From Humisphaera borealis (GTDB lineage Bacteria; Planctomycetota; Phycisphaerae; Tepidisphaerales; Tepidisphaeraceae), in assembly GCF_015169395.1 (NCBI RefSeq), contig NZ_CP063458.1, positions 496,001-560,000 on the forward strand: a stretch of DNA of 64,000 nt, given 5' to 3'. How positions within the stretch are numbered: position 1 is the first letter of the stretch; each line of letters begins with the position of its first letter. A program made the position numbers and the translations under genes. The notes beneath the pieces are model-generated. The model was not told the origin of the DNA, did not search any database, and saw nothing but the letters and a program-made list of their open reading frames with translations. Below, piece after piece: positions 37,970 to 56,715 of this stretch.

Positions 37970-38196
37970 GGCCCCAGCAAAAAAGTCGCTCTTTTCCAAG
38001 CTCTTTCGTCGGATATTGAAGCAACTTGAGAGCTGCAGCCTTCTGCTCCCCCCGGTGTGCGAATCACGGCGAACTTCGACTTTGGCAGCCTCAGAGCAAG
38101 CCAACGCAGAGATTTCTGCAATGCATTCCTCCTCAAGAGATTCTTGCTGTAAGCGACTTTGGTAAGATGCAATTCACGCTATTCGGTGGAGAGCAA
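37970..38196. other. Leader region of the twelve-gene operon
   Basis: 227 bases between the ARPP-1-like fragment and the first operon gene. An open frame from TTG 38026 runs in phase through it, but that extension (SPRCANHGELRLWQPQ) does not look like protein. Any promoter for the operon should lie here. I see no clear -35/-10 pair. Confidence 0.35.
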
Positions 38197-41100: not shown

Positions 41101-41355
41101 TCCGAAAGCTGGCTCGCTTTTCGTCAAGCCGTCGATGAGGCGGCCATTCTCGCGAAGGTATCGGCCGACTCGCTGTGGCAAAAACTCACGTGCGAGAACC
41201 CACTCAGGTTTCTCAACTTGAAGACGCGGATGGACGCGCTGGAGAAATTCTACAATGAGCCCCTTGGCCAAGACAGGGAAGGTGGAGATCCCGTCTTCTG
41301 GTGGCCGGCAGTCCGCCTTTATTACGACCGGGCGAAGGATAACCCCGGACATTGA
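38197..41355 (+). CDS. LysM / amidohydrolase-2 protein with Gly-rich N-terminal domain
   Basis: The start is set at ATG 38197, 6 bases after GGAG, giving about 1052 residues. About 1-145: a Gly/Cys/Pro-rich beta region (PVLMGPMQVSIGGCTAPSPF, VLRIGNQGHCAGV) that faintly resembles PAAR-type tip proteins. About 250-305: a LysM domain (YTVKKGDTLWSIGQRFGTSW), which binds peptidoglycan or chitin sugars. From about 325 on: HIDSHCH with the HxH metal pair, RGFVGIKMYTRCGW, ITNHHSPGG and VLAGTDWPL with the catalytic Asp. These are hallmarks of amidohydrolase-2 TIM barrels, here interrupted by a ~250-residue insert. No signal peptide is seen, so export would need a dedicated apparatus. First gene of the operon and a candidate cargo or tip protein. 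Confidence 0.75.
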   Translation: MPDDLISATSSATPGSVTGVCVRMLLGHHLEPASGQTFGASVTEFAAVTQLSVGDDPVLMGPMQVSIGGCTAPSPFNAMPGTCYGCGQVSPAAGELLRAPMPVLRIGNQGHCAGVAISNVWPHPPIPVMCELKICRSGQRATGGAPPPAAVPQVAHGTVGAGEAATNGQSEFKLKVSWLDAPANGLRVLARPTKGEAAQGVRNLILDEKGCVTFRMPNRECVVQLIDVLPEQIHEQSAATVSEDRLPCLNYTVKKGDTLWSIGQRFGTSWEKIWNHEKNGKLKSDRHSDPKRLQENDALVIPQLQRATLKLNAKTENHVRLVPLLPHIDSHCHVVAASQYEPVLGGSDQQELAAYDEVVLVYKDGVAVRWPAPVTVDVRRTGTDPGEQPTWDRTDVDVQSVVRLSISSSNRTPPQPAIYESETEWTVSKPGSDGVASGVAIFLANGSLTQVPLPTCLRRNGQLPICLRDGQELRFQENLPRLVQRHHFGFAAWINTPAGFRGAVSMVAVGKFLVHNVLESEATNAWYLLRGLAGNSTTDRLNDRAKAIVPLVLDLSQTPIRKSLHAWVLDVIAGSHVEAEVRDDSQDYPRREYIWFKQDVNRIVTVVERIAHKGRGEVLPFAPFDARNPEAMKIVKDCVPQRGFVGIKMYTRCGWLPTENAKLFGDPRGAIVDRQAKELLEFAIKSDLPITNHHSPGGWPPTSEEVGPACFWSSLNFGFPRLNKPNPQASFEDAARWLVEAFCVATARYCEYVQTLASPYIWISTLNENTRLRLNLAHFGTAGAAWCRYQSRQSASIEVSESTSTYLRYNPVIVSGERFAGSQFKAAVLLRLTRASVSELEWYLTDDEFGWARSQLQRLTQGDPTVPLLWELKEPEHLNQVLQLPHWQDWLSQWKNRFPLDWCSKILDLMTNFPNVFADLSYFVGDLEREDGDVLRRLLSEIAKHKTWQHRVLAGTDWPLIEKDGVGVSESWLAFRQAVDEAAILAKVSADSLWQKLTCENPLRFLNLKTRMDALEKFYNEPLGQDREGGDPVFWWPAVRLYYDRAKDNPGH

Positions 41356-41407
41356 AATGCCCCAACCCGATATGTAGACTGCCCGCAAGATTTCTACACG
41401 CCATCGC

Positions 41408-43396
41408 ATGGGTGAGCAGCACGCTTTTTTTCCTGACGACTCGACTCTGGCCGTCCTGCGGTCCGTCCGTACTCAGGCGGATAAGGGCGACCAGTACCTG
41501 ACCGACTTGCTCCGTTTGCTGGCCGGCGCTTGTGCCGACTTAGCACCGGCCCTGAAGTTATTCCCGCCTACGGCAACGCTGCGCCCTGTCCAAATCACCA
41601 CTGGCGTGAAGTTCCCGCTGCAGTCGCTTCTCAAAGCGGCTGAGAGCGTTCGTCAGGCTGCGGGTGGCAAAACAATCACGTGCTCGTCCCTCTTCTACAT
41701 TGCCGTATCATCCGAAAACTACTGCGGCGATGAAATCGACAGTCAGACCGTTCGCGTTCTCGCCAAACAGGGCTACGGGCTCGCCGGGTTGAGCTTCGTC
41801 GACAAGCCGCCCCCGCCGGTTCCGGTTGGTTTGGGAGACGACCTGACCGCGATGTCCTACGGCTGGGAAGCATCACCGCTCGGTCTCGCGGATGACGCCG
41901 CCGTACCCCGCTACTTGCAAGTCCTGATGGTCCAACTCTTCGGCGGATACTACACGCCGGTGCTGGTTGCCGAGCCTGGCGTCGGCAAGACCACGCTCGC
42001 CATGCAGATTGCCTACATGCTCCGCAGCGGCGACGGGCGGGTAAACTCGTCGATGCATCAGCTCCGGGTCGTCGGGGTATCGCGATCGCACTTAATGTCC
42101 GGCACTGCTGACAGGGGGCAGCTTGAGGAACGCGTTCGGCAACTCGTCGATCTTGCCCATCGAGACAATGGCTCCATCGTGTTTTTCGACGAGATGCACT
42201 CGATGTTCGATTCGAGCCGCGAGGGCACGATCATCTCCAACATCCTGAAGCCGCCCATGGCGGCCGGGCAGTTGCGATGTTTCGGCGCAACCACCCGCGA
42301 AGAATACGATCGCATCTTGTCATCTGATCCCGCACTGGCCGATCGGCTCTCGCTGATCCCGTTGCCCGAACCCACACGCGACGCGGTCGTCGCAAATTTT
42401 AAGCGATCCCCTCAGTCCGTCCTGAAACGCACCGGCCAGACGCAGCCTCCCCGCTTAACCGACGACGCCATTCAGGCAGCCGTCGACCTGACCATCCGTT
42501 ATCTGCCACTGCAGCGACTTCCGCGCAAGGCCGCGAACCTCATCCGCACGGCGGCAGCCGAGTTGCATTATGACAACCCTAAGGCGACACAACTAACCGG
42601 AAACGATGTTCGCCGAACGCTCGAAAAAGCGCTCTCCATGCCGGAAGGCCACCTGACCGCGAGCGTTTCCAAACGAGCAGGCCGCCTTCGCGAGTTGATC
42701 TGCATGGACGTAAAGGGACATGATGAGGCTGTGAGCCTCATTGCCAACTACATCATGGCAGGTGAAGACGCGCGAGCGCGCGGCGCACTTCAGCACGGAC
42801 CGATCGCGTCCATTTTCCTCGTCGGGCCCTCAGGCGTAGGCAAACGTACGCTCGCCTGGTCAATTGCCCGCCATCACTTTGCCAATGGCGGGGCCGAGCG
42901 CGACGTGATCTCGGAGATCGACGTCGATGGGTTTGATGGCGAGACCGGCATCAATCGCTTGCGTGGTGCGCCGCCCGGCTATGTCGGATATGAGGAAACG
43001 CGGACCAGCATCTACAGTGATGTCCGCGCCTCCGCCCGCCGACTTGTGCTCATTCGCGGCGTCGACCGCTCCAAGGGGCTAGCCGCACTGCTGCGTCCCA
43101 TCCTCGAAGAGGGAACCGGTGCAGACGGTCGCGGCAGGCCCGTGTCGTTTGCCGGCTGTGTCCTGATTCTGACTGCCGAGTCCGATCAGCAGGGCGACGC
43201 CGCCGCTCTTCGTGAGTCTGTAGATCTGAAACTGGACCTCCAGCTAGTCGAACCACTGGGTCTCGCGGAGATCGCAGCGGAAATGTCTTCCCAAAGCAGC
43301 CTTAACTCGACCACCGCATCGGAGATAACGGCCGCAGCAAAAAGCCCGAAAGACATCGTTCGCGCGATCAGGTTGGCTTCGCTACGTATCCACTAG
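41408..43396 (+). CDS. ClpB/ClpV-like double AAA+ ATPase
   Basis: 662 residues, shorter than usual ClpB or ClpV (about 850-900). An N-terminal ~180-residue domain is followed by D1 with Walker A EPGVGKTTLA and Walker B SIVFFDEMHSMFDSS, the helical region KAANLIRTAAAELHYD, then D2 with Walker A GPSGVGKRTLA and the pore-loop segment RGAPPGYVGYEE. The D2 Walker B position reads RRLVLIRGVDRS, without the Asp-Glu pair, so D2 probably binds but does not hydrolyse ATP. There is no coiled-coil M domain of ClpB length. Family role: threading of protein substrates, including disassembly of contracted sheaths in type VI secretion. Here it is probably the energy source of the operon's machine. Confidence 0.85.
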   Translation: MGEQHAFFPDDSTLAVLRSVRTQADKGDQYLTDLLRLLAGACADLAPALKLFPPTATLRPVQITTGVKFPLQSLLKAAESVRQAAGGKTITCSSLFYIAVSSENYCGDEIDSQTVRVLAKQGYGLAGLSFVDKPPPPVPVGLGDDLTAMSYGWEASPLGLADDAAVPRYLQVLMVQLFGGYYTPVLVAEPGVGKTTLAMQIAYMLRSGDGRVNSSMHQLRVVGVSRSHLMSGTADRGQLEERVRQLVDLAHRDNGSIVFFDEMHSMFDSSREGTIISNILKPPMAAGQLRCFGATTREEYDRILSSDPALADRLSLIPLPEPTRDAVVANFKRSPQSVLKRTGQTQPPRLTDDAIQAAVDLTIRYLPLQRLPRKAANLIRTAAAELHYDNPKATQLTGNDVRRTLEKALSMPEGHLTASVSKRAGRLRELICMDVKGHDEAVSLIANYIMAGEDARARGALQHGPIASIFLVGPSGVGKRTLAWSIARHHFANGGAERDVISEIDVDGFDGETGINRLRGAPPGYVGYEETRTSIYSDVRASARRLVLIRGVDRSKGLAALLRPILEEGTGADGRGRPVSFAGCVLILTAESDQQGDAAALRESVDLKLDLQLVEPLGLAEIAAEMSSQSSLNSTTASEITAAAKSPKDIVRAIRLASLRIH

Positions 43397-43417
43397 GCAT
43401 CATTAACGGATAACGCA

Positions 43418-46400
43418 ATGGCAGAAAATAAAGTGCACAAGACAGCAATGCTCGTTGGCGACTTTGGCGGGAACAATGAGAAGGTGAAGGACAAATTCAT
43501 TGTCTTCTCGTACGCGGGACGTCCCAATTTAGAATACGACGCCTTTGTTAACCATTACGACATCCAGACTACCGAGCTTGGGCCACTTAATTCTGGCAAT
43601 CCATTCTTCAATTTCTTTAAGCCAATCGGTCCACCGAATGGCGCGCAGCCTGTCAATGCCTCCCAGATGGCGGAGGAGGTTGTTAGCGGGTTTGATCAAT
43701 TGGCGAAAAGCATTGCATCGACACTGTCTCAGGTTGACGAAAAACAAAGCAAAGCTACAGCGAAAGAAGAGAATCTGAAGGTCAATGGCCGCCCCTCCAA
43801 CAAACCGTTTATCAATGTGTTTGACGCGGTCATTGGTGGCAAGGACAACATTGGTTGGGAAAAATTTGAGACAGCCACGAAGCTGGGCCTAGAAACCCTT
43901 CGATCGGAAGGCAAAACAGGGAACATATCGTACAGCACGTTGAGTGAAAAACGCAGTCTCTTCCGCCCATTACTGTGGCGCAACTTCTTCGATAGACTTA
44001 ATAGCGCCGCAGAAGAGGCCGCCAAAGCATTTATGACTCAATGCAGAAAGTCGCAGATCGATAACGTCAAAATCGATCTGGGCGACAGAGGACGTTGGAA
44101 GCGATTCGTAACCAGTCTCGCAACGCGGAACGACGTTCTAGACCCGGCAGACCTCGGCACTGCTGTAGGTGTAGACCACCCTGCGACACAAGAATTCCAA
44201 GCTTGGCTCAAGAACTTTGACGGTCTTGCAAAAGCTACGGTCATCGGAAAGGCAGAGGTGCATGAAGCTTTGAGCGTCGCAACAGAACAGGCAAAAACAG
44301 ATTGGAAAGCCGGCTCTGGTAAAAGGCCATTCCCGGCTGTTTTCTCGGGAATCCTCTCAGAGTACGCGCGTGCTCGGTCCGGCGGTGCGATGCTCAGTGA
44401 GGACCTCATGGTTGATGTCCTGCATAATGCGATTCTTGGTATGATTGCTGGCACATCGGTTTCCGCTCAGGATTATTTCGCGAAAGCTCGTGCTGAGGGT
44501 CGCAAAGACTTCGCCAATGAATCTGAGGATAATTTTCGTGATAATATCAACGGATATGCTAAAAAACTAATCGAATTGCTCAAAGACGACAAGGCAATTC
44601 AGGATGCTGAATCCATAGCTTGTGTTGCTGCCCATCTCGCCTGGTTGGCGACCGTCGAACCCACAAAGCGAAGCGAGATTACTTCTTGGCTGCTTCTGGC
44701 ACAGGATCCAAACTGCAATTCAAAGCTATCTAATGCTACCGCCGCTCCAGCAGGGGATTTCGCAACGCAGGTCGAAGCCTGGTTTGTGGAGGCGAGACAG
44801 CGGCGGCACGACAGAGGACATACTGGCTCCAAGGACGACTCGATGAGTTCGGCGAGTTCAACCACTGGCACCAGTTCTTCGGGTGTTGATCGAAACACAG
44901 AGACCGTTCGAGAATCTGAAGGGTCGCAGAGTTCAGATTCGCGGAAGGCCGGCACGGGAGACTCTGACGACGGGAAATCGAACCAGGGTTCAGTGGGCAA
45001 TGAATCCGAGCACGTCTCGACACCTTCTCCTCTGCCTGGGCAACAGCAGAACGAGCACGGTGAGCCCGTCGATGTGAAGGGGGGGGCTCCGGTTGAATCC
45101 AAGATCGAAAGCAGTCACGAGGATAAGACTTCAAAGGTCGACAAAAAGGTTGTGGAGACTGGCAAGGAACTGGATGCACTTGATAGTTTGTTGAAATCGG
45201 TATCCATCAATCTGAATGGCCAGCTACCGAAATTGCATACGCTTCTTCCGTTATTCCATACATCGATTCATAAATCATTCACCATCCTCCTTTCGCAGAA
45301 GGACTTGCCGGACGCCCAGAAACTGGCTCGAGAAAGCGCATTTCAGTATATCCACGCCGTGATGCTTATTCGCCAGGGCTTGCAGTTCGGTGATCCTGAC
45401 TCGGCAATCCTGCGATGGATCTTCGAAATACGGCAACACCAAGGTGTAGATCAAGTCCTGAAGAATGTGCCGGTGACGGAGTTTATTGATCTTGACAGCC
45501 TCGTAGTCCAGCGGAACGCCATGGACGACGCGTACACTGCTGCTATTGGTGATTCGATTCCATTGCTAAGCAAGTTATACGGTGTCGAATGCTTGATGCA
45601 GTCATTGAACAAGGATGGCTATCGCCTAGTTGTTTGGAACGGGAATTCAGCTACGGCTGTCGCGCGTCTTGCGAGTATCACTGCGATGAATCCAGGACCG
45701 CCCTGCGGCGATTCAGTGCCGCTTTGCGTATATTTTGCTGACGAGCCCGACACCGTTACAGAAGCCTTACTCAGTCAGCCTACTAAGAATCGATTTCCAC
45801 CGTGCCTGCTAGACGCAGGTCCTGATTGGGTGAAAGGAAGACCCTGGCTTTCGACACTTCCGGACATTGAACAGATTCCTTGCCTGTCGCTATGTGGTCC
45901 GGGTGTACGTCTTCGTGGATTGACCGACGATGTCAATGAGGGTTTGAAGGCAAATAATGGCAGTCCGTCGTCACCGCTGATACCCGCTGGCTTCTTGGTT
46001 CTCGCCGCTGCAATGAACGGCACGGAAGTCGTCTCAGCGGGCGACTACGATGTTCACGTGCTACCGACAACCCAATTTGTAGGGACTGGACCACAGGAGC
46101 AGGGGGCCGTCAGGTTTAATCTGACGACGGTGGCGGGGGCCTTGTTAAAAGCCGGGCTACTCGGCGGTATTAAAAAGGTGTTGGCGTCAGATTCTAGCCA
46201 GTTCGGAGGCGATATCCTCGCGTGGCTGGAAAGGTGCCAGATCACCGGTATCACCGATCGGCCGACGTATTGCCCGGCCGAGTGGAAGTTTGCCGTCCCT
46301 GGCGAATCGAAGATGGTAGTCCTTTGTAATGACTCGAAGTCGACGATGGCCCTGACTGCGACTCCGGGTATCTATGTTCACCGAGTAAACGCCTACTATG

Positions 46401-46420
46401 CGTCGATCCGTCCCGACTGA
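43418..46420 (+). CDS. 1000-residue two-lobed protein of unknown function
   Basis: I do not recognise it. It begins HKTAMLVGDFGGNNEKVKDK, with a Lys/Asn/Ala-rich helical lobe of ~460 residues. A Ser/Asp/Glu-rich linker (about 465-590, for example SMSSASSTTGTSSSG and GTGDSDDGKSNQGSVG) leads to a second lobe with helices then beta-rich sequence, ending VHRVNAYYASIRPD. LVGDFGG near the start loosely recalls the start of small sheath subunits (TssB), and the position after a Clp-type ATPase fits, but that is speculation. No signal peptide or membrane segment. Base composition is clearly AT-richer than the glycan locus. It lies 21 bases after the ATPase gene. Confidence 0.6.
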   Translation: MAENKVHKTAMLVGDFGGNNEKVKDKFIVFSYAGRPNLEYDAFVNHYDIQTTELGPLNSGNPFFNFFKPIGPPNGAQPVNASQMAEEVVSGFDQLAKSIASTLSQVDEKQSKATAKEENLKVNGRPSNKPFINVFDAVIGGKDNIGWEKFETATKLGLETLRSEGKTGNISYSTLSEKRSLFRPLLWRNFFDRLNSAAEEAAKAFMTQCRKSQIDNVKIDLGDRGRWKRFVTSLATRNDVLDPADLGTAVGVDHPATQEFQAWLKNFDGLAKATVIGKAEVHEALSVATEQAKTDWKAGSGKRPFPAVFSGILSEYARARSGGAMLSEDLMVDVLHNAILGMIAGTSVSAQDYFAKARAEGRKDFANESEDNFRDNINGYAKKLIELLKDDKAIQDAESIACVAAHLAWLATVEPTKRSEITSWLLLAQDPNCNSKLSNATAAPAGDFATQVEAWFVEARQRRHDRGHTGSKDDSMSSASSTTGTSSSGVDRNTETVRESEGSQSSDSRKAGTGDSDDGKSNQGSVGNESEHVSTPSPLPGQQQNEHGEPVDVKGGAPVESKIESSHEDKTSKVDKKVVETGKELDALDSLLKSVSINLNGQLPKLHTLLPLFHTSIHKSFTILLSQKDLPDAQKLARESAFQYIHAVMLIRQGLQFGDPDSAILRWIFEIRQHQGVDQVLKNVPVTEFIDLDSLVVQRNAMDDAYTAAIGDSIPLLSKLYGVECLMQSLNKDGYRLVVWNGNSATAVARLASITAMNPGPPCGDSVPLCVYFADEPDTVTEALLSQPTKNRFPPCLLDAGPDWVKGRPWLSTLPDIEQIPCLSLCGPGVRLRGLTDDVNEGLKANNGSPSSPLIPAGFLVLAAAMNGTEVVSAGDYDVHVLPTTQFVGTGPQEQGAVRFNLTTVAGALLKAGLLGGIKKVLASDSSQFGGDILAWLERCQITGITDRPTYCPAEWKFAVPGESKMVVLCNDSKSTMALTATPGIYVHRVNAYYASIRPD

Positions 46421-46485
46421 TTGGATGGAGTCTGATGTGTCGGAGTCGATATCAGTAGGGTCCACGCGAGGCAAAGGAGGCAAGC

Positions 46486-47367
46486 ATGTCCTTTCAGTTA
46501 GCATTCGACGGAAGCATCTTTCGTGAGGTCAGCGGATACCGATTTGCGATGGTGCTTTCGGGTGGTGGCGCCTTATCTGCGGCTTTGCAGGTCGTCTTGG
46601 AGGACTTTGCTGCGCAGCCTGGTGGAATACTGGGTCGAACTCAGCCTCTGTCCTTCCTAATTGCGAACATGATGCCTGCCGTTCCGGCAATCGGCGCAGT
46701 AACGATTGGCATGCCCAGCAAGGGCGCTCTGTCGTCGGGCCTGAATCTGACGGGTTTCCAGGTCGCTTCAATCGACCGTCAGGTTGTTGGAGAGTATGCG
46801 CGCCTCTCCTTCGACTTCCGAGGGACGCCCGGGTTCAATGTTGTCCCAACGGTTCAACCGGCGGCGCCTCCGCTGGGCGTGAATGCTGCCGGAATGGTCC
46901 GGTTCGGTCCTGGCGCTGTGGCCAATGCGAATTGGAAGCCCGTCCGAGATATAGATTCTTCGGGAAAGGTCCTGTCCTGGCGAACGGATCGCTGTGTAAT
47001 GGATGATCCGATCGCGAGGATGCTGGGATGGCGAGGAGCCGCATGGGACGTTAACCCGGAGTTCAACTGGACTGGCGTGGACGCGGCAGCTCAATCGGCC
47101 AAGGGCGGTGTAGCCATGACCGTTCCCGGAATGGTTTATGAGGAGTTGGCTGGCCGCTACTGCGCGTTGCCAAGATGGCGGGCATACGAGCTTGAACGTG
47201 CGTTCGCGACCCCCGGCGGAGTTGGTTCGTTGTTGCGCTGCGATCTGGACGTAGTTGTGCCGAAGGCGGTGCATACGAATAGCGAGCAAGGCTATCAACC
47301 CGATGGTCGCATTGAGGAACGGGTGTCGATCGTCTTCTCTGGCGACATCAAGATTCCGGTTTGGTAG
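46486..47367 (+). CDS. Unknown 293-residue protein (beta-rich)
   Basis: A strong AGGAGG site lies 5 bases before the ATG. The sequence is Gly/Val/Ala-rich with alternating patterns (YRFAMVLSGGGALSAALQVV, GAVTIGMPSKGALSSGLNLT, RVSIVFSGDIKIPVW at the end), suggesting beta structure. No signal peptide, transmembrane helix or catalytic motif is seen. A 15-base gap to the next gene indicates cotranslation. A tube- or baseplate-like structural role is possible but unsupported by any motif I know. Confidence 0.6.
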   Translation: MSFQLAFDGSIFREVSGYRFAMVLSGGGALSAALQVVLEDFAAQPGGILGRTQPLSFLIANMMPAVPAIGAVTIGMPSKGALSSGLNLTGFQVASIDRQVVGEYARLSFDFRGTPGFNVVPTVQPAAPPLGVNAAGMVRFGPGAVANANWKPVRDIDSSGKVLSWRTDRCVMDDPIARMLGWRGAAWDVNPEFNWTGVDAAAQSAKGGVAMTVPGMVYEELAGRYCALPRWRAYELERAFATPGGVGSLLRCDLDVVVPKAVHTNSEQGYQPDGRIEERVSIVFSGDIKIPVW

Positions 47368-47382
47368 CCGTAGGGAGTTGTC

Positions 47383-48648
47383 TTGGCCGGTGTCTCATCC
47401 ATCACGACGACTGTCGCAGGCGTGACGATGCACTTCCATGCGGTAACGCGCATTGAGGCCGTCGGTGCCCGCTTGCGGTGGAAGCTCCATACACGCGATC
47501 CCAGGATCGCTGGCATTCGTGCCGGTGCGCAGGCGGGTACACCCGCCGATCCGTCGCCGAGACTCGTTGGACCGATCGAGGTCGTGCTGGCCGGTGGTCA
47601 GAAGCTAAGCATCAACGGTCCGTTTAGAATCGCGGATGCTCCTCGTAGGACAACATACCCCGATGAACTGATGCTTCAGGTGGAGCAGACCGTTGAGACC
47701 CCAGCAAGTCTAGTTCCGGGACGTGCGGCTTATTGTGTGCCCGCCAACGGTATTGAAGGCTTTCTGAATACGGACCCGTTTTCCGGATCCTTGCAGCAGA
47801 TCAATCAAGCAGTTCGTAAGAAGATCCAGGGGATGTTGGAAGGCATTGGAGAAACGGTCGTACTGAGAGTCGACCGCTCCCCGCTAGATCTTGCGGCATG
47901 GCTGGCATGGTCGGCGTCGTATCTGGGCGAGGACCACTTCTGGGTGATCGGAAGAGCCGGCACGAACTGGAGCCTGGTCAAGGACGACAACCAGCAGGCA
48001 TTCGACATGACTGCCGATTGGCGCCCGACTTATGAGACAGAAATCTGTTGCAAAGAGCTCCCAACGCCATATGCACGGAGGGCAGGTTTGGTCGAGGTCT
48101 ACCAAAGGGTGTCCGAGGTGACCCTGGATGAAGCGACACAGTTATTGACAAAAGCATTTCTCCCGAAGCGGGCAAACTTCGCGGGGAACCACCGGTGGAT
48201 CGTCCGGCGACGAGACACCTGGGCAACCGGGCCAGTCGGCTGGGAAAGCCTAATCGACATTGCCGATGCACCACCAGAGCCTGTGTGGCAGACGCCGGAC
48301 CTGGCACCTATGGGGTATCTGCGAGGTAAGGTTGCCAAGTCTTGGACGAGCGGTGTATCCGTTCAATGTACGATGGATGGGTGCAACGATCTTTTTCCCG
48401 CAAGACTCACGAGTTTTGACGCAGGGACCGGCAACGCCTTCGGGTGGCAATGGGTTCCCAGTGAGGGCAACACACTCTGCCTGGACCCCGATTGGTCGCT
48501 CACTGGTATGCCGTTGATCCGATACGCCCAGCGTGATGTTGAAGTACCTGCTCCATACGCAATGGCCTTGCCGACCGGAAAGCAATGGTCCGGCAAGACG
48601 GGGATGCGGAAGATGACGCTCTCTGATCGGGGGATGCGCGTTGATTAA
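47383..48648 (+). CDS. Unknown 421-residue protein with OB-fold-like C-terminal part
   Basis: The start is TTG, 5 bases after AGGGAG. N-terminal beta-rich segments (GVTMHFHAVTRIEAVGARL, IEVVLAGGQKLSINGPFRI) are followed by a helical middle and a C-terminal block with YLRGKVAKSW, SVQCTMDGCNDLFPARL and FGWQWVPSEGNTLCL. The last order (small beta barrel then a GW..VP.EGN turn) is reminiscent of the gp5/VgrG OB domain in spike proteins. The similarity is by eye only. The stop overlaps the next gene by 8 bases. Confidence 0.6.
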   Translation: MAGVSSITTTVAGVTMHFHAVTRIEAVGARLRWKLHTRDPRIAGIRAGAQAGTPADPSPRLVGPIEVVLAGGQKLSINGPFRIADAPRRTTYPDELMLQVEQTVETPASLVPGRAAYCVPANGIEGFLNTDPFSGSLQQINQAVRKKIQGMLEGIGETVVLRVDRSPLDLAAWLAWSASYLGEDHFWVIGRAGTNWSLVKDDNQQAFDMTADWRPTYETEICCKELPTPYARRAGLVEVYQRVSEVTLDEATQLLTKAFLPKRANFAGNHRWIVRRRDTWATGPVGWESLIDIADAPPEPVWQTPDLAPMGYLRGKVAKSWTSGVSVQCTMDGCNDLFPARLTSFDAGTGNAFGWQWVPSEGNTLCLDPDWSLTGMPLIRYAQRDVEVPAPYAMALPTGKQWSGKTGMRKMTLSDRGMRVD

Positions 48649-49663
48649 GCCAATGTGGGACATTCAGCTCGATTGCACGCTTCTTAACGCCCAGAATAAA
48701 GGCGCTATTGATTGTATTAATGACGGTGACTACGGACTACCAACCGTTACAAAGCAGAACGTATCCAGCGAAGTGGCTTTAGCCGCGATGCGCCATGATT
48801 CGCAACCGCTTCTCTCAATGACAGTGCGTACCGCGTCGCTAGAGCAAGACAGTTATTTCAGCGACGCTTGGGACAAGTTCAGGAACAACATCTGGAACAA
48901 TGCTCGCAGTAGTGAATATGTTCCTCCGCTACTGCGTTTCTCTCGCTGGTGCGACGACCCCGCCAAGAGTCTGATTGTCATCGGCGGATCGGTAGGATTC
49001 GACTGCGACTCGGATGACGTAAGGTTCTGCGTCCCAGATTACGCCGTCGGAACCATTGAGCGCTGGCTAGCCGATCAGTTGAATTCAAGCCGCGTGGTCT
49101 ACTCGAGGTCAGTGTTTCCGATGGCTGGGTGGCGGTCTCCCCGATTTGCCCTCGAGTGGTCTCCGTACTACGTTTACCACCGCTTGATCGACAGTAAGCA
49201 CGACGCGATCGAATGTCTTGAGAGTCATCGCGAGCGTGATCCGCTGCGTGCACTATTAGCATGGACGGAAGTGCGGTACTCGGACGGTGTCAGCGTTCAC
49301 GATAATGTGCTTCGCACCCTCTTCGCCGGAACGGTCCTCTGCCTGCCGGCGCTGCTCTGGTGGAAACAACGATTCGCAAAGAGTCATATTGTGCCAAAAT
49401 CATCCGAAGCGGTCGCTGCCGTAATGCAAATGCTGCTTCAATTTCAAGGTGTCCAGAAGAAGAATGCAGAATGGTACTTGTCAAACCTGCGAAAGATCGG
49501 GCTTCAGAGCAGGGGGTTAATGCCGGAAGGTGACTTGCTACACGCTCATGAAGTGGACGACGAAGATCTGCTGACCGCGCTGCGGGCACTCATTCCGCCA
49601 AAGCAGTTGGTCACCGGATTCCTGCTGGACGTCAGCGGCTTGGATAATGCGATGCTCCACTGA
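48641..49663 (+). CDS. Unknown 340-residue soluble protein
   Basis: No family recognised. The start is TTG 48641, overlapping the previous stop by 8 bases; ATG 48653 is an alternative. It contains a Trp-rich middle (FSDAWDKFRNNIWNNARSS, SPRFALEWSPYYVYHRL) and a helical C-terminal half (SSEAVAAVMQMLLQFQGVQK). No signal peptide. The context suggests a structural or adaptor part of the operon's complex. A 155-base gap follows, the longest within the operon, so an internal promoter is possible there. Confidence 0.6.
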   Translation: MIKPMWDIQLDCTLLNAQNKGAIDCINDGDYGLPTVTKQNVSSEVALAAMRHDSQPLLSMTVRTASLEQDSYFSDAWDKFRNNIWNNARSSEYVPPLLRFSRWCDDPAKSLIVIGGSVGFDCDSDDVRFCVPDYAVGTIERWLADQLNSSRVVYSRSVFPMAGWRSPRFALEWSPYYVYHRLIDSKHDAIECLESHRERDPLRALLAWTEVRYSDGVSVHDNVLRTLFAGTVLCLPALLWWKQRFAKSHIVPKSSEAVAAVMQMLLQFQGVQKKNAEWYLSNLRKIGLQSRGLMPEGDLLHAHEVDDEDLLTALRALIPPKQLVTGFLLDVSGLDNAMLH

Positions 49664-49818
49664 AAACGTCGGCAGCGACAGGAGCGTGGGACGGTTGGTT
49701 GCATTGCGAGAGTGGACCCATTGATAACGAATAAAGGGCTTCCGCCCAGCCCGTCGCGGTACTAATTGGAGTCTGAGGGCCGACGAACACAGCCGACGCT
49801 ATCCGGCAGGCGCCAAGT

Positions 49819-51045
49819 ATGGACCAGAAGTTGACATCGACAAATGTGATCGCTGGATCCGATCCTGCGGCTGGACGTGGCCAACTGCGGCATGTTTGGC
49901 GACCGATACGCTTCGTTTGGCTTGCAGCAGTCAGCGCATCTTTTCTTGGATGCTTGCACATATACCGCGAGATCAACTGTTCGCCACCTTACGTTCTGCA
50001 TCAGGAAATACTTCAGGATGCGCGCGATTGGTTCATAAAAATGGCAGCATTCCTTCAATCACATTGGATAGATTTGGCCGTCTACATCTGGACGATCATT
50101 CTTTGCTTGACTTTCTGGGTCAAGGCGGACCCGGACGAACCAAAGAAGAAATGGCGACGCGCAATCAAGGTCGCAGCCGCTGTCTGTATTGGCGGGTGGG
50201 CGATCAAGGCGGCTGCGCTCGTTGGTGGTCTGGGTCTGATCAATGCGATGCGGTGGAACATGGGCAAGCCCAATGCCGCCGTAAAGGACTCTACGGATGC
50301 CTTCGCGGAACTTACTACGCGGCCGTCGGCGACCCCTGCAACAAAAGCATCCACTCAGCCTACTACGCGAACATCAGCAATCGCGTCCGCAGATCCCTCT
50401 ACGCCAACCGCAGTCCGGGCCATTAAGGGGAACGGAGACCGAGTTTCAGGAGCATACGTCACTTTTCTGAAATCCTCCTTTCTTGGCGACGGTGTTTCCA
50501 CGCCCGAAGACCATGCGCTCGCGGTTCTGCGTGGTGTTTACCCGGAACAAGCGCAGTGGGATGTACTGCTTTCCCGAAAGCTCGCTGATAACCCCGACGA
50601 TGTTAAGACCGCCGTGGAGGATATGCGTGAACGCCTACGTTATATCTATGTATTGCAGGTTCTGCTCGAAGTTCCCATCGGCAGATCGTATGGTCTACAC
50701 CAACTCATTTATACGATAGGCATCTTCTGTTTCTATGGCCTGCGAGTTCGTGACTTAAAGCACGCCGACGTGTATCGACGTCGATTAGATATGTGCCGGC
50801 CCCTCATCAGTCAGCTGGGACTACTAGGTACGGTCTTGGGAATGAGTCTATTCATGTTGCGCCAGGGTACCCCGGATCCGATGCGCGAGGCCCTTGGAGG
50901 CACCGCGATCTCAACATCGCAAGCTGCGGCGTTTTTCCTCGGCGTAAACAAGACCCTTATTGCCATTGCCGTTGGTGCCGTGGTAAGTTGGTACGCAATG
51001 AGTCGTGACGATACGTGGGCTGTCAAAGTATGGCCGCGGGAATGA
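49819..51045 (+). CDS. MotA/TolQ/ExbB-like channel protein
   Basis: 408 residues. The C-terminal segment LISQLGLLGTVLGMSLFML followed 35 residues later by NKTLIAIAVGAVVSWYAM matches the LGLLGT.xG and final helix pattern of MotA/TolQ/ExbB proton-channel proteins. Three more hydrophobic segments lie at about 30-50, 83-101 and 114-140. A Thr/Ala/Ser-rich spacer (about 165-200) separates the halves. Usual family members are ~220-240 residues, so this one carries a large extra N-terminal part. Known role of the family: a pentameric stator converting ion flow into motion with an ExbD/MotB partner; two candidate partners are encoded downstream. Confidence 0.72.
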   Translation: MDQKLTSTNVIAGSDPAAGRGQLRHVWRPIRFVWLAAVSASFLGCLHIYREINCSPPYVLHQEILQDARDWFIKMAAFLQSHWIDLAVYIWTIILCLTFWVKADPDEPKKKWRRAIKVAAAVCIGGWAIKAAALVGGLGLINAMRWNMGKPNAAVKDSTDAFAELTTRPSATPATKASTQPTTRTSAIASADPSTPTAVRAIKGNGDRVSGAYVTFLKSSFLGDGVSTPEDHALAVLRGVYPEQAQWDVLLSRKLADNPDDVKTAVEDMRERLRYIYVLQVLLEVPIGRSYGLHQLIYTIGIFCFYGLRVRDLKHADVYRRRLDMCRPLISQLGLLGTVLGMSLFMLRQGTPDPMREALGGTAISTSQAAAFFLGVNKTLIAIAVGAVVSWYAMSRDDTWAVKVWPRE

Positions 51046-51087
51046 TGGTACGTGATCGCTGGTGATTGATTTTGCGAAGGTAACGCT

Positions 51088-53202
51088 ATGGCGAGCGGAC
51101 TCTTGAAGCGCGTCTCTTGGCTGCGTGTCGCGGTCGTGCTGACATTTTCCGTTGTTGTTCTAGTCGTATTCTGGGTCATCCTATCCCCAAACGATCCCAT
51201 CGCACCGGAGTCATCTAAAGACTGGGCGATGAAGGTCTGTAAGGCTCTGGGGTGGGAACCGAATGAGAAGACGATTCGTGTCGGGTCCGTGGGGCAGACC
51301 CCCATTGTCGACGTCGCCAGCAGATCGATAGATGTTCCTCCAGGAAATGTACGCTTGCCCATGCCTTTGCCAATCAAAGACGGAAGTTCAGGGCGCATAG
51401 TAGCCGTCGACTGGGTTGTTGCCGGGCTAGAGAGTCGGGATGGGGGCACCAGATTAACGGTGAAAGCGGATGTGGCAGTGATTGCATTCGCGATCCTTGG
51501 CCTCACATTCGTATGGCTGATCTGCCATTTTCTATCTATCTTATCCTTGAAGAAGTGTGGGATCAGCGTCCCGTTGCGAGCCATAGTCAATCGCGTACTG
51601 ATCTCCCTCGTGCCGACGGGGCTTGCAATTGCAATTCTTACTGGTCATTTCGTTCCATCAAGATCATGGACGGCCGAAACCGCGTACCGCCGCCAGTTCG
51701 TCACGGATAGAGTCAGCATGGTGCCGCATCTAGAGCCCCCAGCGACCCAAGGGACACCCCCACTCGATGAACTGCTACGTACACTCAATAGCCTCAGCGC
51801 AGCCAAGGACCACCATGTCATCCAAGCCATACTTCTTCCTGACGAATTAGGAGCACTGGCGGCTGACTACAAGGAGAGAATTCAGGATATTGTGAGGGCA
51901 AACGATATCAGACTTAGAGTTGATTCGAGTTCCGAGACGGTTCAGAGAATCGCCTATACCCTCCGACCCGACTGCAATTGTGGCTGGTTAGGTTCTATGC
52001 TTCAGCTGAAAGCCGAGCAGACGACGGACGAACTGCAGTTGAATTCGATCCAAGTCCGGCACTGGGTCGTTTCACGCAAAGTCGACTTGGTGAAATGGTT
52101 GGCCACAGCGAAAACATATCGCACCACTGGGCCCGGCTATCTGTTTAAACAGATTCCGCCGAATGAACCTGCACTGGCGCTAACCGGTCCTCAGTTTGAC
52201 GCGCTATTTGAAAGCAACAAATCGCCGAGTGACGACAGCCGCGTAGAGCTGCTCGCCAGGTTGTGCTGGACCGCCGATCCCACGCTTCCGGCGATCCTCG
52301 CAAACTCGGCAACTTTGCAGGAGAAAGATTGTAGCAGGATAAAGGCAGTGCTTAAGAGACAGTTCGACCCTGCCGTAAGTACTACGGGTTCATATGCTCA
52401 ACTCTACGATTACTGTTATGCGATGTACATTCTATCGGAACTCTCCCATCGGCTAGGCCGAACATGCCCCCCCCAATTAAAAGTACTGATATCCGACGAG
52501 CTATCGAGGTGCCTCAACGCGCTGGGGGGATGGACGAACAACTTCAGCAACTGGGATACGTCGTCCACTTCGCGATTTACCGGCAGTGACAGGAGCCTGC
52601 AATCAGAGCTCCTTTGGATGCTCGCCACCTTTCGGTCGAGTGGCGACGCTAGTATAAATCGTGCATGCTCATCACTTTACGTCCACCTTCTAGCGAACTG
52701 CACAGACAAGCCACAGAGTTCAACCTATGCCGAGGGCGCATATTGGGGCGCTACCCTCATTGCCTTGAACAAGAATGGTCTTCATCCCAATATTATCAAG
52801 CTCTGGCAGTTGCCGACAACAAATCCGTCGACCACAGGAGCAACTGCGGCAAACGACATGTTGAATCAAATTCTGCTCAATCTCAAGCGGCCGGTAAATA
52901 TGAGTAACATGCACAGTACTTACCAGCTCTTGTTTGCGGCTCGCTTCGCTAAGCTTTGCGGGCCGACGCAGAGTACTGCGGTTGCGCAGTTGCTCGCTAA
53001 TGTCCTTGCGTTTAACGGACACTGCTTGCCGCCCGGCACAAGCAGTAGCTTGTCGTACTTCGCCTCCAAGGAAGATCCAGCTAACGATGGTCGGCGTCTA
53101 GCATACTTTTTTAGCCTCATCGCAGCTGCCGAGCTACGAGATTATATCGATACCAATTTCCCAAATCTACGTCCTCCGACCTCGAATCCAACGAGTCCCT
53201 GA
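51088..53202 (+). CDS. Large membrane protein of unknown function
   Basis: 704 residues. Hydrophobic helices at about 13-35 (VAVVLTFSVVVLVVFWVIL), 130-150 (VAVIAFAILGLTFVWLICHF) and 165-185 (ISLVPTGLAIAILTGHF), then ~500 soluble residues that look helical and repeat-like (LLARLCWTADPTLPAILANS, MYILSELSHRLGRTCPPQL). I know no family for it. Set between the ExbB-like and ExbD-like genes, it could be the scaffold that joins the motor to the rest. AAGGT lies 8 bases before the ATG. Confidence 0.6.
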   Translation: MASGLLKRVSWLRVAVVLTFSVVVLVVFWVILSPNDPIAPESSKDWAMKVCKALGWEPNEKTIRVGSVGQTPIVDVASRSIDVPPGNVRLPMPLPIKDGSSGRIVAVDWVVAGLESRDGGTRLTVKADVAVIAFAILGLTFVWLICHFLSILSLKKCGISVPLRAIVNRVLISLVPTGLAIAILTGHFVPSRSWTAETAYRRQFVTDRVSMVPHLEPPATQGTPPLDELLRTLNSLSAAKDHHVIQAILLPDELGALAADYKERIQDIVRANDIRLRVDSSSETVQRIAYTLRPDCNCGWLGSMLQLKAEQTTDELQLNSIQVRHWVVSRKVDLVKWLATAKTYRTTGPGYLFKQIPPNEPALALTGPQFDALFESNKSPSDDSRVELLARLCWTADPTLPAILANSATLQEKDCSRIKAVLKRQFDPAVSTTGSYAQLYDYCYAMYILSELSHRLGRTCPPQLKVLISDELSRCLNALGGWTNNFSNWDTSSTSRFTGSDRSLQSELLWMLATFRSSGDASINRACSSLYVHLLANCTDKPQSSTYAEGAYWGATLIALNKNGLHPNIIKLWQLPTTNPSTTGATAANDMLNQILLNLKRPVNMSNMHSTYQLLFAARFAKLCGPTQSTAVAQLLANVLAFNGHCLPPGTSSSLSYFASKEDPANDGRRLAYFFSLIAAAELRDYIDTNFPNLRPPTSNPTSP

Positions 53203-53232
53203 GAATCGAACCTCTCTTGCCGGACGGTTGCC

Positions 53233-54444
53233 ATGAGCCGAACCTCATTCGTAGATGCGTTTTTTAATATCCTCTTCTTCCTGCTTGTCGCTGCCTGTAG
53301 CAGTATAAGCTGCACAAGCGCCAGTAGAGGACGAACGGAGGCGGGTCTCGTAGTTGTCTACGTTCCGGATGGCGATAGGCGGGACTACATGGTAGAGCTG
53401 CATAGACGAGGCAAGCAAGCGAAAGCGGCTACCCGACCGACCGATGTTGTCATCGCTAGGTTTGATCAAGCGGGAAGGCCGATAGACGACTTGCCGAGAA
53501 CTGAAGCAGCGCCCAGGAAACAGCAAATTCGCATTCGCACAAAGCTTCCAGAAGAAGAGTTTGCAGTTGTAGTTATCCCTGCGTCGCCGGCAGTAGGGAA
53601 GATACCAAGTCCCGAGAATCGCGAAGCTGCGGCGCAGTTCGTGCAGCGTTGTTTTGCTGAACGGCAAGATCATCAGCATCCATCCAATCCACCACTGGGC
53701 AGAGCGGCAGACGCAATGAGTCGCGGCATTTTCGGAAGCTTAAAGGGTGGCCAGCCCACGATTAACGAATCAATTCGCACCATGCTCCAGGAGGTAGAGT
53801 TGGCGAAGCGTTCATTCAGCGGTTCGGCAATAAGGGCCTCAGTTGATAAGTTTGTGTCGTTTGATGACACGATCGTCGCCAGTGCGGGGGTTGATATTTT
53901 CAGAGCCACTAACTCGGGCCCGCTTTCTTTTCAGGAGGGATTCTTTGATCAGGCTGCCTTGATCGAGCGGCTTAATCAGATCGCGCGACAGCGTACGGTT
54001 CCCTCAAATGCCGCTTTGGATCCATGGACCCACAGTAGCGAGGCCGTCCAGACAGCCATCCAGGCGTCGCGATCCAACGCTCTTCTTTATTTGCAGATAA
54101 CTCACCCCAGTACCGTGTTTGGCAGGCCACTTATTTGGTATGACTTTACGGCCGACGACGGCAAGCCGGTCGGGCTGGATATGGGAAGTCCAAAAGATGC
54201 AACGATTAGATTGGATGCTGTCGTTGGAGAGTTGGGCGACTCATCGCCGACTGGGAAAGCAGAAGCAGAGAATAAATACGGTCCATACTTCATAGATGCC
54301 CTGCTACATGTTGTCAATCCAAAGCCAAGCATCGTGGTGCTCGATCCGCGAGTAGGCGAGCGGGCCGCTACCAATTCCACTAAGGAGACGGGGTTGGTTC
54401 AGTTGCAAAGAGGCTTTCAGTTAATCGTTCCAAAGGCCGAATAG
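53233..54444 (+). CDS. ExbD/TolR-like single-helix protein, long periplasmic domain
   Basis: 403 residues. The N-terminus SFVDAFFNILFFLLVAAC has the ExbD/MotB-type helix with an Asp at its start, the residue that takes the proton in that family. The short cytoplasmic start and single helix fit. The remaining ~375 residues are predicted periplasmic and end VQLQRGFQLIVPKAE. They contain no peptidoglycan-binding OmpA motif that I can see. A Cys pair follows the helix, so a lipoprotein signal is an alternative reading. A plausible partner of the ExbB-like protein. Confidence 0.6.
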   Translation: MSRTSFVDAFFNILFFLLVAACSSISCTSASRGRTEAGLVVVYVPDGDRRDYMVELHRRGKQAKAATRPTDVVIARFDQAGRPIDDLPRTEAAPRKQQIRIRTKLPEEEFAVVVIPASPAVGKIPSPENREAAAQFVQRCFAERQDHQHPSNPPLGRAADAMSRGIFGSLKGGQPTINESIRTMLQEVELAKRSFSGSAIRASVDKFVSFDDTIVASAGVDIFRATNSGPLSFQEGFFDQAALIERLNQIARQRTVPSNAALDPWTHSSEAVQTAIQASRSNALLYLQITHPSTVFGRPLIWYDFTADDGKPVGLDMGSPKDATIRLDAVVGELGDSSPTGKAEAENKYGPYFIDALLHVVNPKPSIVVLDPRVGERAATNSTKETGLVQLQRGFQLIVPKAE

Positions 54445-54479
54445 CCCTAGTTTGTGATGGACTGAGGAGGATCAAGCTC

Positions 54480-55064
54480 ATGAAGTCGACTCGCGTGACC
54501 ACCTTCGTCGACATGCTTTGCGGCATTTCGCTTTTTCTTCTCGCAATTCTCATGACAAACTCCTTGACGCGAGTGACGCTTCGGGGGACAGGCTCCGAAT
54601 CGAGTGCGCGGCCTTGGGCATGTATCGAGATCATTCTTGAGCGGAGGCCCCCCGACATTTCGCCAGCTTCGCAGCCTAGTTCGCAGTTACCGGCCGAAGC
54701 CCAGCTTCGGGTGCTCGCAGCCGGGCTGCTTCCCGTGAACAGTGGAGTTTCTACTTCGATATTGGCACGCAATGCCAAGCAGCTGTCCCTGATCTTCTAT
54801 GTTCCGTCGCCCGATGAGAGTAAACCCGCAAATGTTGCGATTGCACTTGTCCAGGACTATGATTGGACGAGAGATTTTGTCCCGGTGGGGCTTGTCTTGT
54901 CCGGGGATCTTCGAGAGGTGCCTGAGATTGCGGTGGGTGACTTGAAGGATATTATTCATCGCGTGATGTCGCCAGAAAAGCAGTTCTCCAGCTGCACGCT
55001 TGGTATGGTTGTTCGATCGCCAAGTTCGGCAACATCTGCTCCTGCGACAGTTCCGGTGCGCTGA
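54480..55064 (+). CDS. Second ExbD/TolR-like single-helix protein
   Basis: 194 residues, nearer normal ExbD length (~140). TTFVDMLCGISLFLLAILMT mirrors the start of the preceding gene: Phe-Val-Asp then an aliphatic helix. The periplasmic part holds LSLIFYVPSPDESKPANVAI and CTLGMVVRS. A strong GAGGAGGA site lies upstream. Two ExbD-type proteins beside one ExbB-type protein also occur in known gliding/secretion and Tol-like motors, where the pair is asymmetric. Confidence 0.6.
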   Translation: MKSTRVTTFVDMLCGISLFLLAILMTNSLTRVTLRGTGSESSARPWACIEIILERRPPDISPASQPSSQLPAEAQLRVLAAGLLPVNSGVSTSILARNAKQLSLIFYVPSPDESKPANVAIALVQDYDWTRDFVPVGLVLSGDLREVPEIAVGDLKDIIHRVMSPEKQFSSCTLGMVVRSPSSATSAPATVPVR

Positions 55065-55092
55065 TTCAGATGGACCTATTTTCGGAGTGTTT

Positions 55093-55767
55093 ATGGTGGA
55101 GTTCGAACTACTGCAGGTTACGAAGGAGCATGATCCGAAGTGGGACGGGCTGGGAGGTATTAGAATTGTTTCCACTGAGTGGATAAATGCCGCTGACATG
55201 ACTTGGGAGGCTGTTATGCTTAATCAAACATTAGTTGCCAGGCAAGCCCTATGTCTTGTGGGATGCAAGGTTTCTACTGTTCAGAAATTGGATGAATGTG
55301 GAAAAGAGTATAGAAAGCAAGGCAGGGCGGCTTTGAGGACGATTAATGAGGGGAGTGTTGCCATTGTAGCTGGCCTACGCCTGGAAAGTCCCTGCCTGTT
55401 TGCACCCGTTGACGCACCGCTTTTATCCGATCCCCCTAAGGGCCTTACTGAAGCGCTATTGCCTCCCAACAATCCCGGCGATTGGAGGAGCGGATGGAAT
55501 GCGATCGTCAAAGATGTCTGTAGTCTCCAGATTGATCTCGACCTTCGCTTCGCAGAAACTCTTTTGCAAGCCAGTTCTTCGGTAGTCGATGCAGTGTTTG
55601 AACTGAAGAAAGCGTCCGCCATCCCGAGCCGCCTGGTTCTCTTGGAGCGCAAAGTCGCCGGGTGGTTGTTCTGCCGCTCGGAATATCGCGATTGGCTTCG
55701 TGGCCATCTTAAGATACTAGGCTGGTACTTGTCAGTTTATAGGAAAGCACCCATTGCGGCTCAATAG
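55093..55767 (+). CDS. Unknown 224-residue protein
   Basis: The start is set at ATG 55093, 5 bases after GGAG. The open frame extends upstream into the previous gene, but that part is not protein-like. No family recognised: MVEFELLQVTKEHDPKWDGL start, a helical C-terminal third (RFAETLLQASSSVVDAVFEL, YRDWLRGHLKILGWYLSVYR). No signal peptide. Short gaps on both sides place it in the operon. Confidence 0.55.
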   Translation: MVEFELLQVTKEHDPKWDGLGGIRIVSTEWINAADMTWEAVMLNQTLVARQALCLVGCKVSTVQKLDECGKEYRKQGRAALRTINEGSVAIVAGLRLESPCLFAPVDAPLLSDPPKGLTEALLPPNNPGDWRSGWNAIVKDVCSLQIDLDLRFAETLLQASSSVVDAVFELKKASAIPSRLVLLERKVAGWLFCRSEYRDWLRGHLKILGWYLSVYRKAPIAAQ

Positions 55768-55788
55768 ACTTGAGCTGAATCTTAGGTA

Positions 55789-56715
55789 GTGCTTGATCAC
55801 ATACTCGTTGTTGAGGACGTGGTTCGTGATACTGAAGATCGAGTTCAAACCGAGTTGAATTCGGTTGAGAGGACAATGAGGTCTTCCATGGCTTACCAAC
55901 CTCGCGATCGTGTCGATTCTGTGTCTGCAGAGGGCTGGCGACAATCGCAATTGTTTTCACTCAGGATTCAATGTGGACTGGACTATGGGGTCGCGAGTGC
56001 TAGGCGTATCGATAACGATCTGAGTATTTCGCTGTTCTGGCCTAGTGGACGATGGTCAGAGGTCTATCTGAGTCAGAATGAGGTCTGTAGCGTTGTTTGG
56101 CCGAACTACCCGAATGATGTATTTCCACGTACGAGCCTAGATGTGGCGTATTCTGACAGTACGCTTGAAGCCAAGTGGTATCGCGTCAGGGAAAGGAATC
56201 AGATTGAGAATGTTCTCACTGAACGGATCGCGCTAAAGTTCAAGGTTGTCGGTAATGTCGTTTTTTTGACAGAGGCTCCAGTTCTAAGTTGGCTGGCAGC
56301 TAGGACAGCGCTCAATAGCTTCAACGATAGTCTTGGGCGAAGTGAGGCCTTGTGTCGTGTCGGATTCCCGTCATGTGCAAAACTTCTGGCGTCCCTTGGG
56401 ATTTTCTCGGCTGCAGAGGAGCCTTCGAGGGACTGGTCTCTCTTGCAGGCTTGGGATGAAGTTATGAAGGCGTTTTCCCGTGAGGGGTTTGATCTGGCTG
56501 GAGTCCGTATCAACGATCCGAGCGCCGCATTGGCGAGCCTTGTCAAATCGCTAGAGGATAAGCTCTTCCCGATAGGGACACAGGTGCCGTTCAACGCGAC
56601 TTTAGCCGGCTTGTTCAATCTCGAGTCAATCGAGGTAATGAACGCGAGATCCCAGTGGGTCCAATACGGTCCGCAACCTCCTGCTGGCGATTTTTTGAGG
56701 ATGCGGAGAACCTGA
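55789..56715 (+). CDS. Unknown protein, last gene of the operon
   Basis: 308 codons from GTG 55789. ATGs at 55876 and 55888 are alternatives, and the latter (MAYQPRDRVDSVSAEGWRQS) looks the most protein-like start. The middle is beta-rich (DLSISLFWPSGRWSEVYL, KFKVVGNVVFLTEAPVLSWL); later sequence is helical. No family or motif recognised. The IS630-type element begins about 250 bases downstream, so this is the last gene of the run as seen here, and the operon may once have been longer. Confidence 0.55.
   Translation: MLDHILVVEDVVRDTEDRVQTELNSVERTMRSSMAYQPRDRVDSVSAEGWRQSQLFSLRIQCGLDYGVASARRIDNDLSISLFWPSGRWSEVYLSQNEVCSVVWPNYPNDVFPRTSLDVAYSDSTLEAKWYRVRERNQIENVLTERIALKFKVVGNVVFLTEAPVLSWLAARTALNSFNDSLGRSEALCRVGFPSCAKLLASLGIFSAAEEPSRDWSLLQAWDEVMKAFSREGFDLAGVRINDPSAALASLVKSLEDKLFPIGTQVPFNATLAGLFNLESIEVMNARSQWVQYGPQPPAGDFLRMRRT

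Follow-up and report, generated by a model that had tools for sequence, protein, structure and literature searches.

Introduction

Known members of the 5:2 motor family drive flagella, the Ton and Tol systems, and gliding together with type IX secretion (T9SS). Ordinary proteins of the MotA/TolQ/ExbB family (PF01618) possess a cytoplasmic domain of about 100 residues, and the threonines of their second and third transmembrane helices (TM2 and TM3) have a role in the family. A review of 5:2 motors covers MotAB, ExbBD, TolQR, AglRQS and GldLM and makes no mention of Clp (PMC9389320). In Myxococcus, AglR, AglQ and AglS (245, 162 and 194 residues) combine one TolQ-like with two TolR-like proteins, all of them clear Pfam matches (PMC3169522). 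In the type VI system, the membrane complex can be replaced, as it is by TssNQOPR in Bacteroidota (PMC10781749). The literature searched, as far as accessible, yielded no machine in which a stator works with a Clp ATPase. Here we describe a block of ExbB- and ExbD-like genes lying downstream of a gene for a Clp/Hsp100-type ATPase in Humisphaera borealis, whose genome consists of one contig of 7.19 Mb (NZ_CP063458.1). The block occupies positions 49819-55064 of the stretch of 64,000 nucleotides that was analysed (positions 496,001 to 560,000 of the contig), termed the window, and all coordinates below refer to it.

An earlier note on this DNA, made from the letters alone, had proposed that one ExbB-like and two ExbD-like proteins form a stator set inside an unfoldase operon. 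We report the sequence kinship of the ExbB-like core, the motifs and order of the stator genes, and their co-occurrence with a related Clp gene in a second genome. We tentatively favour the reading that the block encodes a highly diverged stator, driven by the proton-motive force (PMF), that would act in one machine with the Clp ATPase, the likeliest job of which would be export or injection of a LysM/amidohydrolase protein encoded at the head of the same gene run.

Results

Anatomy and kinship of the ExbB-like protein

The gene at 49819..51045 (+ strand) encodes a protein of 408 residues that is ExbB/TolQ/MotA-like by motifs, hydropathy and profile tests. Hydropathy segments lie at residues 30-48, 83-101, 118-136, 329-347 and 371-389; the last two form a core hairpin, the two-helix core of MotA/TolQ/ExbB, and carry T338 (in LGLLGTVLGM) and T379 (in FFLGVNKTLIAIAVGAVVSWYAM), at the coordinates and in the motifs that the earlier note had given. 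Alignment with relatives keeps both threonines, T338 inside LGLLGT and T379 within the C-terminal helix. A further helix at 291-308, seen by eye and below the threshold of the hydropathy scan, may be the counterpart of ExbB TM1. The protein shares with PF01618 members the TM2-TM3 hairpin with LGLLGT, the TM3 threonine and a short positive stretch N-terminal to TM2, whereas it departs from them in its length, in three extra N-terminal helices (five in the relative described below), in a probably outer domain of about 150 residues and in a loop of about 20 residues. This positively charged loop appears to replace the ordinary cytoplasmic domain, and the domain of about 150 residues that accompanies the N-terminal bundle of three segments is likely to be placed outside; the five N-terminal hydrophobic segments of the relative, odd in number like the three of the window protein, are consistent with equal sidedness. 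The protein is indeed about twice the usual size, the ordinary MotA_ExbB proteins matched below being 194-296 residues long in 12 of 13 cases (the remaining one has 588). Single-sequence structure prediction returned a mean predicted local distance difference test score (pLDDT) of 42 and no usable fold.

Kinship was evident from comparison with a genome of another family in the same phylum (denoted G211). When window proteins were joined into one query, this genome was matched at G211:C75 over residues 249-368 of the 408-residue protein (E 9.5e-9, 29% identity), the only other listed match there having E 0.63; the two proteins align at E 2e-12 in pairwise blastp and with a probability of 95.6% in hhalign (score 66.7 vs 16.3 reversed). 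A profile of two rows, comprising only these two sequences, was then run on 302 genomes at E <= 0.05 and retrieved, besides G211, 15 other matches aligned at the core-hairpin columns. Ordinary MotA_ExbB proteins account for 13 of the 15: among the ten matched open reading frames (ORFs) that were scanned, eight are Pfam MotA_ExbB proteins above cut-off, and the other five, not part of the scan, show 83-96% identity to MotA_ExbB proteins that were. The two others are L165 (CNNM/CBS) and L167 (DUF998), the ORF scanned for L167 having come from a repeat search and perhaps not being in the frame of the original match. Run on 1266 fetched ORFs, the two-row profile placed MotA_ExbB at the top with 19.7 bits, followed by 13.4 for L165 and 8.0 for L167, with a maximum of 6.4 bits among reversed ORFs; against PDB it found no match.

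In the reverse direction, a hidden Markov model (HMM) of the ordinary MotA_ExbB proteins scored the 408-residue protein at 19.4 bits, above every reversed control. Since the ordinary set had been picked through matches to the query profile, this search is not independent, except for the TM3 tail of the G211 relative. That tail, LGLAFNTTLVGLVILVFLGF, reads as a typical ExbB helix, lies in a different frame from the rest of its gene, is absent from the two-row profile and was nevertheless matched by the HMM of ordinary proteins (11.4 bits). We conclude that core-hairpin homology, and not a library cut-off, makes the 408-residue protein a predicted member of MotA/TolQ/ExbB. A full-length relative occurs in one of the 302 genomes, G211, and single-protein searches of 150 related genomes with this protein and with the 704-residue protein encoded next to it gave no relatives.

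Two ExbD-like proteins downstream

Two genes farther 3' on the + strand each encode a protein with an F-V-D start motif and one helix, in agreement with the earlier note, which had pointed to Phe-Val-Asp and an aliphatic helix in both. The first, of 403 residues (53233..54444), begins SFVDAFFNILFFLLVA, with a short N-terminus, the aspartate at D8 and then the hydrophobic helix; about 376 residues follow, close to the 375-residue periplasmic part that had been estimated. The second, of 194 residues (54480..55064), begins TFVDMLCGISLFLLAIL, with D11 and an extracytoplasmic part of about 165 residues. The large membrane protein said to be encoded between ExbB- and ExbD-like genes is there as well: it has 704 residues (51088..53202, + strand), three hydrophobic segments (14-32, 131-149 and 166-184), a large soluble part and no family match. 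In their short N-terminus, the aliphatic-Asp opening of a single helix and the position of their genes 3' of ExbB, the two proteins resemble ExbD/TolR (PF02472), from which they differ in extracytoplasmic parts without detectable ExbD kinship.

A start pattern set after the sequences had been seen asks for two aliphatic residues and an Asp no more than 45 residues from the start, with 18 residues of mean hydropathy >1.6 thereafter. Among 1296 distinct ORFs, 18 show it; outside stator loci it is found in 2 of 1280. The 18 comprise the two window proteins, two copies of the ExbD1 locus of G211, 12 ordinary ExbDs adjoining MotA_ExbB genes, and two unrelated ORFs (L004 and L050). Downstream of the G211 ExbB gene come a gene for a 455-residue protein starting MRALCFLDIICCALFSSILVF and then the beginning of another, MGKSLVSFLDLMTGFVGAFFLLISIT, so that the order ExbB-ExbD-ExbD is common to both genomes. 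Motif and gene position thus support a predicted ExbD-like nature for the 403- and 194-residue proteins, and the stator set proposed in the earlier note is borne out by the indirect profile tests, the kept channel residues and the gene order of the second genome. Two further candidate kinships were rejected, the alignments being no better than those of shuffled sequences: that of the window and G211 ExbD1 proteins, and that of the 704-residue protein with a 280-residue fragment upstream of the G211 ExbB gene.

The combination of a single ExbB and two ExbDs is in itself nothing unusual, as ordinary loci (L166, L168 and L170) and the Myxococcus proteins illustrate. The window block resembles AglR-AglQ-AglS in bringing one TolQ-like and two TolR-like proteins together in a single block; unlike it, it has the 704-residue membrane protein inserted and the Clp ATPase upstream.

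The Clp ATPase and its co-occurrence with the predicted stator

The ATPase (662 residues, 41408..43396, + strand) was identified from motifs and library matches. In common with ClpB, ClpC, ClpA and ClpV it has two AAA+ rings, an intact first Walker A and B (VFFDE) and the GYVG pore loop in the second ring; it differs from them in its size, in forming a long-branch lineage with G211, and in the loss of the second Walker B acidic pair (LVLIRGVD), where the G211 relative keeps LEE. That relative, on contig C1103, is the best match among other genomes (246 bits; 392 searched). Directly 3' of it lies a gene for a 1140-residue relative of the 1000-residue soluble protein encoded next to Clp in the window (43418..46420, + strand; low-complexity middle), followed by the start of another gene. 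The two large proteins align at E 5e-4 in blastp as a single pair and share motifs such as VGxFxG and IQTxxLGP; a relative of the 1000-residue protein was found in one of 148 genomes, again G211. A tree groups the window and G211 Clp proteins together (100/100) outside type VI ClpV, a placement made unsure by their long branches.

G211, which was first reached through its Clp match, is thus the only other genome found to hold relatives of Clp, the 1000-residue protein and ExbB together. This co-occurrence of three rare genes in one other genome supports their belonging to one system. The position of the stator inside an unfoldase operon, as the earlier note had it, is supported in the window, where the genes form one co-directional run, and by their co-occurrence in G211, although the two blocks lie there on different short contigs.

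Clp relatives at other loci were inspected as candidates. Of 13 additional loci retrieved, the relatives inspected, at L049-L051 and L053, have other neighbours, in several cases FHA genes, and were set aside.

As a separate observation, Clp-type ATPases adjoin FHA genes at L049, L050 and L177/L178, and that of another genome, G589, is accompanied by Ser/Thr kinase, WD40 and PP2C genes as well (by eye). These FHA-adjoining ATPases are apparently a separate, signalling-linked Clp family.

The gene run and its first product

Twelve genes lie on the + strand from 38026 to 56715, with intergenic gaps of -8 to 155 nucleotides. The order is LysM/amidohydrolase protein, Clp ATPase and the 1000-residue protein, then proteins of 293 (46486..47367), 421 (47383..48648) and 340 residues (48641..49663, overlapping the 3' end of the preceding gene), the ExbB-like protein, the 704-residue membrane protein, the two ExbD-like proteins, and proteins of 225 (55090..55767, start uncertain) and 308 residues (55789..56715, the last gene). 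The 293-, 421-, 340-, 225- and 308-residue proteins are without family; G211 has a gene in the place equivalent to that of the first of these (start only), its homology not being significant. Searches of the operon proteins against Pfam, NCBIfam and PHROGs gave matches only for the Clp ATPase, LysM and, weakly, the amidohydrolase. For the 421-residue protein, single-sequence structure prediction gave a mean pLDDT of 35 and no usable fold, and a single-protein search of 392 genomes gave just five weak matches (E 0.004-0.01), read as chance. Viral and plasmid collections yielded generic Clp genes only or nothing useful, and promoter- and terminator-like sites are no more frequent than in shuffled sequence.

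The first gene (38026..41355, + strand; the true start is probably ATG 38197) encodes a large protein with an N-terminal domain without known family, a LysM and a C-terminal part of amidohydrolase type. No hydrophobic export signal was found in it; it should therefore either act in the cytoplasm or depend on a dedicated exporter. Among 210 ORFs from type VI loci of related genomes, three proteins have LysM parts that align with its own (E 3e-8, 9e-7 and 2e-5), and two of the three carry PAAR motifs. A PAAR-like N-terminus, suggested by resemblance, was rejected for want of a Pfam match.

The locus resembles the type VI system in the similarity of its ATPase to ClpV (hhalign 100%) and in the likeness of the LysM protein to proteins of type VI loci, whereas it has no match to TssB/C, Hcp, VgrG or TssE/F/G and none to TssJLM in Pfam and NCBIfam scans. 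Compared by hhalign with Hcp, VgrG and TssE/F/G profiles from related type VI loci, no operon protein exceeded the best reversed control. The 1000-residue protein did not rise above reversed controls against TssB, TssC or TssBC fusions, and TssB and TssC HMMs that detect such fusions at E 1e-15 to 1e-53 miss it. A type VI assignment of the 1000-, 293- and 421-residue proteins was rejected, their weak matches having turned out as chance alignments and their hhalign scores being no higher than the best reversed control. The genome itself holds no ordinary TssC (best E 0.23 with PF05943).

The type VI loci of related genomes contain TssB-TssC fusions of 604-607 residues (L145:5660-7483, L147:11827-13647 and L155:6355-8169), with the TssB part matched at E 1e-15 to 1e-19 and the TssC part at E 1e-44 to 1e-53; the same contigs also hold ordinary TssC.

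Genomic setting

Transposase genes flank the operon at 35456-36034 and 57029-58071 (IS5-like and IS630-like by eye), and the guanine-plus-cytosine content of its genes (0.51-0.61) is below that of most of the window; given these features, the operon is possibly an acquired island. An ORF at 37493-37969 matches the last part of the ARPP-1 model only (PF20208, 95 bits) and looks like a truncated gene.

Discussion

By analogy with described 5:2 motors, several copies of the 408-residue protein would form an ion-conducting barrel that encloses ExbD-like helices of one kind or of both in a 5:2 assembly, the aspartate of the helix would be the proton carrier for ion flow, and the extracytoplasmic domains of about 376 and 165 residues would pass movement outwards. 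The stator, the cytoplasmic Clp ATPase and the 1000-residue protein may constitute one machine, and a shared envelope machine of stator and Clp ATPase is likely. In such a device, spanning the envelope, the stator would act at the inner membrane by supplying force or gating, and the ATPase would remodel or recycle a cytoplasmic part, for which its conserved neighbour, the 1000-residue protein, is the candidate; the exported or injected cargo would be the signal-less LysM/amidohydrolase protein encoded first. We infer this last step, since homology to the type VI system is confined to the Clp-ClpV similarity. The fullest form of the proposal, an undescribed envelope-spanning export or injection machine that combines ATP, through Clp, with PMF, through a 5:2 motor, that handles the LysM/amidohydrolase cargo and that occurs in rare, distant lineages of one phylum, we consider doubtful.

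A number of findings weigh against the favoured reading of a diverged stator in one machine with Clp. Direct searches of Pfam, NCBIfam, PHROGs and PDB returned no MotA_ExbB match to the 408-residue protein (in Pfam none at E <= 1) and no ExbD match to either ExbD-like protein. The earlier note had proposed profile searches as a check and had held that the lack of a significant match would refute its claim; taken literally, that is the outcome of the direct searches, whereas the indirect profile tests support a stator, the libraries missing these proteins because the sequences are too diverged. The window and G211 ExbD-like proteins show no significant sequence kinship, nor do the 293-, 421-, 340-, 704-, 225- and 308-residue proteins to G211 proteins. 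The ExbB-like gene of G211 (L065 ~1700) shifts frame just 5' of its last helix, which could be an assembly error, a broken gene or a programmed shift. In G211 one contig of 3.9 kb carries the stator genes and another of 5.5 kb the Clp genes, so that their linkage is seen in the window only, and here the widest gap of the gene run, 155 nucleotides, falls immediately 5' of the ExbB-like gene. A wider search of the class (310 genomes) found one other Clp match at E <= 1e-60, in G589 (320 bits); it was rejected as an equivalent system, its neighbours being kinase, WD40, PP2C and FHA genes with no stator, and Clp alone is therefore a poor marker. No part of the operon matches type VI sheath, tube, baseplate or spike families, and the LysM, which is matched by a phage endolysin family as well (41 bits), does not point specifically to injection.

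Some of these findings would be expected of a stand-alone energiser of TonB or Tol kind, engaged in outer-membrane uptake or envelope upkeep and placed downstream of the Clp genes by chance. Such an explanation is unlikely, if a serious contender: the gap 5' of the ExbB-like gene permits a separate unit, the arrangement ExbB-ExbD-ExbD is an ordinary one in these genomes (L166, L168 and L170), and the stator and Clp blocks of G211 are on different contigs, but all stator parts are far from ordinary ones, the special ExbB recurs with the special Clp in the same single other genome, and the operon proteins scanned include no match to TonB, TolA, TolB or Pal. A PMF-driven motor for surface motility or adhesion, of AglRQS/Glt or GldLM type and with Clp in quality control or disassembly, strikes us as quite improbable. 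Neither of those systems is, to our knowledge, accompanied by a Clp ATPase, and library scans matched no Glt, Gld or adhesin family in the operon; this is set against the AglR-AglQ-AglS composition of one ExbB and two ExbDs with extracytoplasmic domains (PMC3169522), and against the 376-residue part of the first ExbD-like protein, which could act as a shaft of GldM type (PMC9389320).

In a strongly diverged relative of the type VI system, the ExbB/ExbD stator would replace TssJLM, the 1000-residue protein would be the sheath and the 421-residue protein the spike. We know of no type VI membrane complex that includes ExbB/ExbD. The replacement by TssNQOPR in Bacteroidota supplies a precedent, and the ClpV similarity, the LysM common to PAAR proteins of type VI loci, the first gene product without a signal and a genome without ordinary TssC would all agree; the 1000-residue protein, however, has no TssB, TssC or TssBC match above reversed controls, the 421-residue protein matches neither hub nor OB models in Pfam and gave no usable single-sequence fold, and the tree, unsure as its long branches leave it, separates the Clp proteins of the window and G211 from the ClpV group (100/100), so that this account too appears improbable. 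Anti-phage defence of the Zorya kind, with a MotAB-like sensor motor and effectors, would account for a stator beside large proteins without family; PADLOC models, run on ten of the proteins, matched the AAA parts of Clp only, with no ZorA, ZorB or partner among the matches, and Pfam gave no OmpA-like or nuclease match, making it highly improbable.

Returning to a stator and Clp ATPase acting together, the recurrence of these parts in one other, distantly related genome suggests an uncommon and so far undescribed machine of the cell envelope. Such stators escape the standard profile libraries, and more may therefore be hidden. Should the link prove real, a Clp-type unfoldase and a proton-driven stator of the ExbB/MotA class would act together in a single machine, and the 5:2 motor family would gain an additional job.

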